A DNA stretch of 64,000 nt from Aromatoleum toluvorans (GTDB lineage: Bacteria; Pseudomonadota; Gammaproteobacteria; Burkholderiales; Rhodocyclaceae): assembly GCF_012910905.1 (NCBI RefSeq), contig NZ_WTVN01000017.1, positions 1 to 64,000 of the forward strand. The letters are read 5' to 3'. Below, piece after piece: positions 1 through 62,106 of this stretch. Position 1 is the first letter of the stretch. Every line of letters starts with the position of its first letter. Under the pieces are notes generated by a model, which worked only from the letters and a program-made list of their open reading frames with translations, was not told the DNA's origin and did not search any database. Position numbers and translations under genes: made by a program.

Positions 1-124
1 TTTGCCTTCGGCTTCCTCCAGATTCGCAGTTACCCGCGACACCCTTGCCGTTCGGCTAACTCTTCCCCTTGCCGGGCGAGTAGAGGACTTCCACCTCCAA
101 GTGAGTGCGCCCTGCCGGGCGCAC
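1..124 (-). mobile_element. 5' end of a bacterial group II intron, probably class C (cut by window edge)
   Basis: Read on the minus strand from position 124, the sequence opens with GTGCGCCCGGCAGGG, a group II intron 5' end (family consensus GUGYG). It continues with the domain I blocks GGAGGTGGAAGTCCTCTA, GTTAGCC, GGCAAGGGTGTC and GAATCTGGAGGAAGC in the order known from class C introns such as the Oceanobacillus one. The rest, including any reverse transcriptase/maturase gene, lies left of the window. The insertion point sits about 9 nt past a Rho-independent terminator stem, and class C introns characteristically insert after terminator hairpins. Class is inferred from motif order and target; the intron identity itself is secure. 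Confidence 0.88.
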
Positions 125-125
125 C

Positions 126-157
126 AAAAAAAAACGCAGTCCTCGCGGGACTGCGTT
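126..157 (-). terminator. Rho-independent terminator, target site of the group II intron
   Basis: A perfect 10-bp stem (AACGCAGTCC at 133-142 pairs with GGACTGCGTT at 148-157) has a 5-nt loop and, on the minus strand, runs into nine T. It would end a transcript entering from higher coordinates. No protein gene lies directly upstream on that strand, which suggests that the transcript is non-coding. Confidence 0.85.
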
Positions 158-273
158 AAATCCACACCAAAGGAGGAGGGTGGAGGAGACACCGGTTTGG
201 ATCACGAAGCTAAATCGATCCGACTGAGTGCCATTATCCAGAGCCGAATCCGACGTGGCAAGCACTTTTTGTG
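126..273 (-). ncRNA. candidate small RNA with two CUCCUCC motifs in one loop
   Basis: The minus strand holds a -10-like TATAGT at 285-280, so a start near 273 would give an RNA of about 148 nt ending at the terminator. Just before the terminator, 194-202 pairs with 160-168 (8 of 9 bp). This presents a 25-nt C/U-rich loop (169-193) with two copies of CUCCUCC, complementary to Shine-Dalgarno sequences. A small GCAC-AAAAA-GTGC hairpin lies near the 5' end. Loops of this type are known in trans-acting regulatory RNAs that block ribosome binding. No convincing reading frame lies in the interval. The 5' end is a guess; the terminator and loop are seen directly. Confidence 0.55.
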
Positions 274-302
274 CATCGCACTATAAATGTTTTGATCGAC
301 AG

Positions 303-317
303 ATAAGCATTGCTTAT
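303..317. promoter_or_regulatory. 15-bp palindrome, LysR-type T-N11-A operator candidate
   Basis: ATAAGCA-T-TGCTTAT is a perfect 7-bp inverted repeat with a 1-nt centre and fits the T-N11-A rule of LysR-family regulators. It overlaps the -35 region of the minus-strand small RNA promoter and lies in the AT-rich stretch between the small RNA and the OsmC gene. Which regulator binds is unknown; OxyR is a thought because of the OsmC neighbour, but the match to its consensus is only partial. Confidence 0.4.
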
Positions 318-331
318 TAAATTATAAATAA

Positions 332-345
332 TTGATGCATATCAA
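332..345. promoter_or_regulatory. perfect FNR/Anr box
   Basis: TTGAT-GCAT-ATCAA matches the FNR/Anr consensus TTGAT-N4-ATCAA exactly, in an AT-rich island of an otherwise GC-rich region. Toward the OsmC gene, a TATGCT hexamer at 366-371 would place the box near -40, close to the class II position. Toward the small RNA, the TATAGT -10 would place it near -65, close to but not at a class I position. The spacing does not decide between the two targets, and both may respond to oxygen limitation. Confidence 0.7.
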
Positions 346-528
346 GTTCTCCTCCTCCCCCGACATATGCTGCGGATGGCATCTGCCATGTGGAGCTCGC
401 TTTCGCGGACACATTGCTGCAACGCATCAGTAACTCCAGACTGCGCACCGGGCGCGGGCGGCCTTCCGGTAGAATCGCCCTCCGGTCGACCGATGGCGAC
501 CCCAATCCAGCCGACAACGGAGTCAATG

Positions 529-948
529 ATGGAATGCACGATCAAATGGGTCGACGGGATGACCTTTCTTGCCGAGACCGGCACCGGTCACGTCGTGGCG
601 ATGGACGGCGCACCCGAAGCGGGCGGGCGCAACCTGGCGCCGCGGCCGATGGAGATGATGCTGGCGGGTGCCGGCGGCTGCACGGCGTTCGATGTGGTGC
701 TGATCCTGCAGCGCGGTCGCCACGATGTGCGCAACTGCGAAGTGAAGCTCGTGGCGGAACGGGCCGAGACCGATCCCAAGGTGTTTACGCGCATTACCTT
801 CCACTTCACCGTGACCGGCAAGGGGCTGAAGCGTGAAATCGTGGAACGTGCGGTGCACCTGTCGGCGGAGAAGTATTGCTCCGCGTCGATCATGCTCGCC
901 AAGACGGCGGAGATGGTCCACGAAGTGAGGATCGTCGACGTGGAATAA
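529..948 (+). CDS. OsmC family protein, YhfA type
   Basis: This 139-aa cytoplasmic protein belongs to the OsmC/Ohr superfamily of thiol-dependent hydroperoxide reductases. The redox cysteine pair is visible as C51 (in GAGGCTAFD) and C117 (in EKYCSAS). Length and sequence follow E. coli YhfA along the whole chain (KWV-G-TFL, PMEM, SAEKYCS). YhfA itself has no proven substrate, so peroxide reduction is inferred from the fold. I chose the ATG at 529 because GGAG lies 6 nt upstream; the ATG at 526 is nearly equivalent. The FNR box 190 bp upstream suggests oxygen-responsive control. Confidence 0.88.
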   Translation: MECTIKWVDGMTFLAETGTGHVVAMDGAPEAGGRNLAPRPMEMMLAGAGGCTAFDVVLILQRGRHDVRNCEVKLVAERAETDPKVFTRITFHFTVTGKGLKREIVERAVHLSAEKYCSASIMLAKTAEMVHEVRIVDVE

Positions 949-53797: not shown

Positions 53798-53918
53798 GAA
53801 CGCTCAGAGGGTTTGATGAGTTGCACGAGGACCCACGGCCCCCTGACCGGCAACGTACGGACGCCCGGATCGGGCCTGCGGCGCACAAAGGCACCGATGG
53901 CACGCTTTTGCGGGCCGC

Positions 53919-61923: not shown

Positions 61924-62018
61924 TCAGTTAATCGACAAGAAATATAAGGTAACGAATCCGATTGGGAACTTTTCCCATTCGTGTTTACTCTGACAGTTCG
62001 GATGGTGACGAGCCGTCC

Positions 62019-62106
62019 CCCGCTTCACCTCCCTGAGCGGGCGCCTTAATCCCGTTAAGGCATTTGGCCCCGGGCTTTATCCCCTTTAGCCCGGGGTTTT
62101 TATTTT
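62019..62106 (+). ncRNA. candidate small RNA: three consecutive hairpins ending in a terminator
   Basis: On the plus strand three stems follow each other. CCCGCT/AGCGGG (62019-62041) has the loop TCACCTCCCTG. GCCTTAA/TTAAGGC (62043-62061) has the loop TCCCG. CCCCGGGCT/AGCCCGGGG (62068-62096) has the loop TTATCCCCTTT and then TTTTTATTTT. The last is a clear Rho-independent terminator although no plus-strand gene lies upstream; the first loop contains an anti-Shine-Dalgarno ACCUCC. On the minus strand the same loops show GGA, the CsrA/RsmA target word, but no T-run follows there. The 5' end is unknown; the T-run covers the yihA stop codon. Confidence 0.5.

Follow-up and report, generated by a model that had tools for sequence, protein, structure and literature searches.

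A small RNA gene of family RF02278 in Aromatoleum toluvorans with a putative PhaR-type operator and a lineage-bound FNR-type box

The window analysed here, a stretch of 64,000 nucleotides of Aromatoleum toluvorans DNA, contains on its minus strand a small RNA (sRNA) gene which, judged by its sequence, is real but is a member of a known RNA family, RF02278 ("Betaproteobacteria toxic sRNA"). The conserved promoter of the gene is preceded by a palindrome that looks like an operator of the PhaR/PhbF type and that is more widely conserved than the FNR-type box located further upstream. In the model that we consider probable, the gene encodes an anti-Shine-Dalgarno RNA that is gated by the PHB status of the cell through PhaR and that receives an additional, lineage-specific FNR-type input.

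Family membership and distribution of the sRNA

Positions 191-126 (minus strand) matched the Rfam model RF02278 with 64.5 bits (cut-off 50) over the entire model (1-64 of 64). The original prediction of an sRNA with twin anti-Shine-Dalgarno motifs is borne out by two CUCCUCC sites on the minus strand within the RF02278 core. The RNA is thus not a new one; NcS27 of Burkholderia and S17 of Bordetella are its relatives. For FnrS and AniS no Rfam match at the cut-off was obtained at the sRNA locus, and the scores for NmsR (RF02877, 31.6 bits, gathering score 52) and MmgR/suhB (mmgR, RF00519, 20.8 bits, gathering score 41) remained below the thresholds of these families.

The host genome (4.8 Mb assembly, in which the window forms the start of contig C26) contains five RF02278 copies. 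A search across relatives yielded matches at E ≤ 0.001 in all 17 same-genus genomes, the host included, in 141 of the 150 genomes of the host's bacterial family (112 above the cut-off), and in 158 of 250 genomes sampled from the order (93 above the cut-off), a sample that includes a few genomes of the host's own family. All 28 aligned relatives have an identical core sequence from UGUCUCC to GGAUU; the sRNA loci compared in this study are mainly higher-scoring matches, not random draws. The other four copies in the host are compact genes on contig C95 (L006, 4070-7480). They are arranged in pairs, with a LysR-type gene and a Lyase_1/fumarase-type gene, the latter resembling by eye an aspartate ammonia-lyase gene, enclosed by the two pairs.

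The features of the locus, with positions in the window, are as follows.

528-948, plus strand: gene of an OsmC family protein, divergent neighbour (NF008009, 172.4 bits, cut-off 138)
332-345, minus strand: FNR-type box TTGATATGCATCAA, a palindrome on both strands, centre near -113 (motif scan and spacing)
303-317, minus strand: inverted repeat ATAAGC-N3-GCTTAT between box and operator (sequence; similar in some relatives by eye)
269-281, minus strand: putative PhaR/PhbF-type operator GTGCGATGCACAA, centre near -50 (motif enrichment; motif from PMC3206438)
256-261, minus strand: -35 element TTGCCA (pattern scan and aligned upstream regions of relatives)
233-238, minus strand: -10 element GATAAT (pattern scan and aligned upstream regions of relatives)
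126-225, minus strand: predicted full-length sRNA of about 100 nt (start 7-8 nt past the conserved -10, U-run of the terminator taken as the end)
199-221, minus strand: 5' hairpin, 221-216 paired with 204-199 (single fold and consensus of 28 relatives)
126-191, minus strand: RF02278 core of 66 nt, perhaps the processed form (Rfam match)
182-191, minus strand: first anti-Shine-Dalgarno site UGUCUCCUCC (sequence)
172-179, minus strand: second anti-Shine-Dalgarno site CCUCCUCC, mostly in a hairpin loop (sequence and predicted fold)
133-157, minus strand: intrinsic terminator stem-loop, U-run 132-126 (10-bp stem in the predicted fold)

The OsmC protein has its nearest named relative in Aromatoleum buckelii (87 percent). 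In A. buckelii the gene that follows the sRNA reads by eye as rplM; the rplM-like gene of the host is located on contig C79, with a different gene upstream, so that the neighbourhood of the sRNA looks rearranged. Directly past the U-run of the sRNA an intron-like sequence begins (1-124, minus strand), in which positions 39-1 resemble a group II intron (RF02001, 29.5 bits, below the cut-off of 32) that is interrupted by the end of the contig. Insertion behind terminators is known for group IIC introns. Elsewhere in the window, an anti-hemB RNA (RF02837, 76.3 bits, cut-off 49.5) was found at 62016-62104 on the plus strand.

Promoter and folding of the RNA

A pattern scan identified the conserved promoter TTGCCA-17-GATAAT at 261-233, and the same pair of elements stands out in the aligned upstream regions of relatives. 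A promoter at this position predicts a start near 225 and an RNA of about 100 nt that carries an extra hairpin at its 5' end. TATAGT (285-280), previously taken as the -10 element, overlaps the conserved palindrome at 281-271 and was rejected because the conserved promoter sits downstream of it. Likewise discarded was an FNR class II promoter with a start near 296, for which no good -10 element could be seen by eye at that place.

In the predicted fold UGUCUCC is single-stranded and is followed by a hairpin whose loop contains most of the second CUCCUCC and then by the terminator, whose presence on the minus strand had been correctly recognized. The original prediction had also both motifs exposed in a 25-nt loop on a stem of 9 bp. 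Pairing 202-194 with 168-160 does give such a stem, with one mismatch, but the predicted structure is a different one, and the stem was rejected by the single-sequence fold and by the consensus fold. According to the predicted fold and the Rfam structure, the loop holds only the second CUCCUCC, the first being split between a single-stranded stretch and the hairpin's 5' arm. The predicted fold of the 66-nt core surpassed those of 200 of 200 shuffled sequences (z -5.07) and that of a 102-nt form those of 198 of 200 (z -2.83). The consensus fold, computed from 28 sequences, has 23 pairs, of which 5 displayed at least one double change; two of these belong to the terminator and three to the 5' hairpin, which has six pairs.

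A putative PhaR-type operator upstream of the promoter

The palindrome TGC-N3-GCAC directly before the -35 element was first noticed when the promoters of relatives were lined up. It was then examined in a test without a preselected motif, in which all 64 triplet palindromes with spacers of 0-8 (576 combinations) were counted in the 160 nt before the RF02278 cores. TGC-N3-GCA ranked first among the 576 in the host's bacterial family, where it occurred in 107 of 128 distinct upstream regions (shuffles: mean 12.2, maximum 20), and again in the other families of the order, with 43 of 70 upstream regions (shuffles: mean 6.5, maximum 12). The dinucleotide content of the shuffles was approximated, and loci whose core escaped a simple pattern (4 of 130 in the family, 15 of 85 in the order) were dropped. 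The form with R-N-Y in the middle was present in 105 of the 128 same-family upstream regions and, when the first base was also left free, in 124, both forms having been chosen after inspection of the data. The distance from the operator to the -10 element, which was set automatically (none was set in 24 cases), clusters at 42 and 22 nt, values that are two helical turns apart. Among the four copies on contig C95, three have the operator core 36 nt before the sRNA core and the fourth has only a TGC-N5-GCA version.

The palindrome corresponds to the motif TG[N]TGC[N]3GCAA of PhbF, the PhaR of Herbaspirillum, for which a DNase footprint and repression of phaP1 and phbF are reported (PMC3206438). 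In the host genome TGCNNYGCACAA occurs 29 times, compared with 10 occurrences of a reversed control. Two of the four host phasin genes have TGCNNYGCACAA at most 150 bp from the domain start; their operators are 41 and 42 nt from the -10 element, compared with 42 nt in the sRNA gene, and both have a second site past the -10. A third phasin gene carries TGCGTTGCAGCA and the fourth is without TGC-N3-GCA; the 600 bp ahead of the phaR match in the host genome likewise showed no such site. Unlike the two phasin promoters, the sRNA gene has no second TGC-N3-GCA near its start. As the single operator at -50 leaves the -35 element uncovered and the site near the start is missing, repression is not obvious, and PhaR might do something other than repress at the sRNA promoter.

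Operator-like sites were also seen at other places in the genome. The window contains a second TGCGGCGCACAA site (53877-53888, plus strand), flanked by ORFs that by eye resemble a phosphoglycerate mutase (minus strand) and an ArsR-type regulator (plus strand). At C51:24459-24495 (L157, L158) two facing TGC-N3-GCA sites stand upstream of an ORF that by eye resembles a benzoyl-CoA reductase subunit. Overall, the ORFs beside the operator-like sites of the host genome give a mixed picture by eye.

Co-occurrence of PhaR and the operator

PhaR is encoded in the host genome (PF07879 match at C27:59558, 5.3e-31). Outside the host's bacterial family TGC-N3-GCA was present in 39 of 48 genomes with PhaR versus 3 of 18 genomes without PhaR (Fisher 2e-6, a p-value that is too small because the genomes are related), and the R-N-Y form in 38 of 48 versus 0 of 18. 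Counted by family, the plain core was found in 16 of 17 families with PhaR versus 2 of 6 without. The comparison covered 66 of 76 genomes, since loci in which the pattern did not find the core were dropped. Among the genomes without PhaR, the sRNA and its promoter are of a common, divergent type. Nine of the 48 PhaR-bearing genomes are without the site. The RF02278 genes of PhaR-less order genomes (L308, L312, L315, L318, L327 and similar) have the promoter stretch TATTAGATAAT, or a sequence near to it, in common.

Within the host's bacterial family, 144 of 150 genomes encode PhaR, one of them weakly. The sRNA is missing in 3 of the 6 PhaR-less genomes versus 6 of the 144 genomes with PhaR (p 0.003, kinship among the genomes ignored). 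Two TGC-N3-GCA sites are kept in genome G136 (90 percent complete), in which PhaR was not found, and a one-base variant of the site occurs in genome G012, in which PhaR was likewise not found.

The FNR-type box

Across the 64 kb, where 0.01 perfect FNR boxes (TTGATN4ATCAA) would be expected, the one that had been recognized at 332-345 is unique. Its centre is 62.5 bp, or six helical turns, from the operator centre and about 113 bp before the start, which is not a class II position. The spacing was examined at 50 loci with long promoters, consisting of the window, 9 same-genus loci picked for their long promoter, and 40 of 80 osmC loci. A box with at most one mismatch stood exactly 65 nt before the operator in 19 of the 50, compared with 2 for 200 other offsets together. 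As the filter for these loci required an operator-like sequence and a TAAT -10 element, the result tests the FNR spacing only and not the operator. Loci with the box at the fixed spacing belong to the Aromatoleum type, Thauera, Azoarcus taiwanensis, and MAGs. No such box was present at the fixed offset in the other 31 loci, and the 250 nt preceding each of the four copies on C95 contained no FNR box with up to two mismatches either.

The assignment of an FNR-type site to the sRNA promoter region is upheld by the fixed spacing of the box to the operator and the promoter, by a distance to the osmC start that ranges between 190 and 286 bp across 13 loci, and by a host protein that scores above the threshold of the NCBI Fnr model (250.6 versus 228 bits). 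The rigid placement of the box relative to the operator makes an FNR-type input plausible in the Aromatoleum/Thauera group. Control by FNR itself is what we infer from the sequence, and other Crp/Fnr-type regulators are also encoded in the host genome. Dnr-type NO regulators would recognize a box similar to that of FNR.

Comparison with known regulatory RNAs

FnrS and AniS are FNR-dependent sRNAs, with an FNR-type site upstream of the sRNA gene as in the present locus; here, however, the box is centred near -113 and is accompanied by a PhaR-type operator. The NmsR sRNAs of Neisseria resemble the RNA described here in having two CU-rich sites and a double-hairpin plan; the similarity at the level of Rfam is weak and their regulation differs. 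A PhaR site in an sRNA promoter has a precedent in MmgR of Sinorhizobium meliloti, whose gene is bound by PhaR in gel-shift assays, is repressed by PhaR/AniA, and is tied to PHB (PMC12542648, PMC8401924). MmgR nevertheless belongs to another RNA family, occurs in another bacterial class, and targets phasins (PMC12542648, PMC8401924).

Closer relatives are found among the Betaproteobacteria. S17 of Bordetella pertussis has a related core, which is formed when RNase E converts a long form of 190 nt to one of 67 nt, and its sites lie near ribosome-binding regions (PMC11722255). The counterpart of S17 Site 1 is the first anti-Shine-Dalgarno site UGUCUCCUCC. S17 pairs with and represses BP2158, as confirmed by compensatory changes, and matching target sites are listed in Aromatoleum aromaticum EbN1 (PMC11722255). 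In contrast to the sRNA studied here, the level of S17 is Bvg-dependent, a repressor is only postulated, and FNR is absent from the text (PMC11722255). The double-hairpin RNAs of Burkholderia cenocepacia, NcS27 (bdhR1) among them, also belong to RF02278 and have twin CU-rich sites, several copies per genome, and a terminator hairpin; one of them arises by processing of a longer form, and the accessible parts of the two reports describe no PhaR or FNR link (PMC4603805, PMC5688073). Overexpression of NcS27 slows growth and respiration, and the Burkholderia RNAs increase in biofilms, under starvation, and in glucose medium (PMC5688073). The common upstream motif reported for three Burkholderia copies (PMC4603805, PMC5688073) may be the TGC-N3-GCA operator.

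Alternative explanations

According to the original prediction, the sRNA would resemble FnrS or AniS in being driven by FNR, TATAGT would serve as the -10 element, and oxygen would be the main signal. The perfect FNR box, its fixed spacing in Aromatoleum and Thauera, and the presence of Fnr agree with this proposal, yet TATAGT lies inside the operator, the conserved promoter is at 261-233, and the box is absent from most RF02278 genes examined, namely the 31 of 50 long-promoter loci and the four C95 copies, so that we regard it as improbable. Just as little credence is given to the view that the box, standing between osmC and the sRNA gene, serves the divergent osmC gene; that candidate was set aside on the grounds that the box keeps a constant distance to the operator and a variable one to osmC. 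The rival that deserves most attention concerns the palindrome, at which a different regulator might bind or which might simply be part of the promoter, the sRNA being an ordinary RF02278 RNA under other control. TGC-N3-GCA is short, operator-like sites in the host also occur by eye near genes that have no obvious tie to PHB, and binding of PhaR to an RF02278 gene was not found in the literature searched. Arguing against this explanation, which we judge unlikely, are the match of the palindrome to the footprinted PhbF core, its placement as in phasin promoters, and its loss in PhaR-less genomes.

The family name hints at a toxin-like RNA, such as the toxic half of a toxin-antitoxin pair, and growth of E. 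coli is inhibited by cloned members of RF02278 (PMC4603805, citing Kimelman 2012). Overexpression of S17 did not, however, impair exponential growth of E. coli BL21, relatives of the RNA have defined targets (PMC11722255), and no antitoxin-like partner was noticed in passing, which renders a toxin function very improbable.

A model for gating by PHB

In the model that we favour, with gating of the sRNA by PHB through PhaR, the double-hairpin RF02278 RNA would be transcribed from the sigma70-type promoter at 261-233, starting near 225 and ending at 126, and this transcript of about 100 nt might, like S17, be processed to the 66-nt core. Through its two CUCCUCC sites the RNA would pair with the ribosome-binding regions of target mRNAs and block their translation, as has been shown for relatives; the targets are probably transport and catabolic genes. 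As long as no PHB is present, free PhaR would occupy the operator before the -35 element and hold the sRNA gene down. When PHB accumulates, PhaR would move to the granules, the amount of sRNA would rise, and further carbon intake would be lowered. Such a release is known from Ralstonia eutropha, where PhaR is set free from DNA by binding to nascent granules (PMC11332829). In Aromatoleum and Thauera an input of oxygen or NO would be added through the FNR-type box, which lies upstream of the operator at a distance of six helical turns.

What makes the sRNAs of B. cenocepacia accumulate was called unknown (Sass 2017; PMC5688073), and the authors of the S17 study speculate on an unknown repressor (PMC11722255). 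Among the papers listed by a literature search, made by whole words and with few subscription papers covered, no joint mention of PhaR/PhbF with RF02278/NcS27 was found; in PMC5688073 'phar' occurs once as the start of a word and never as a whole word. We tentatively advance, as a possibility that for now falls short of even odds, that PhaR is the missing regulator of RNAs of the RF02278/NcS27/S17 type in many Betaproteobacteria. The PHB granule would soak up PhaR, the anti-Shine-Dalgarno RNAs would be freed, and carbon intake would be shut, and one copy in Aromatoleum/Thauera would act as an integrator at which an FNR-type protein and PhaR bind six helical turns apart. The repressor of S17 could then be PhaR as well, and the reported -35 element of S17, TTGCAT, could be the first half of a PhaR-type operator.

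If the PhaR operator is true, it offers one candidate switch for the RF02278 RNAs of many genera. Carbon storage would be tied to the translation of carbon-uptake genes, and a little-understood RNA family would gain a switch that can be tested.
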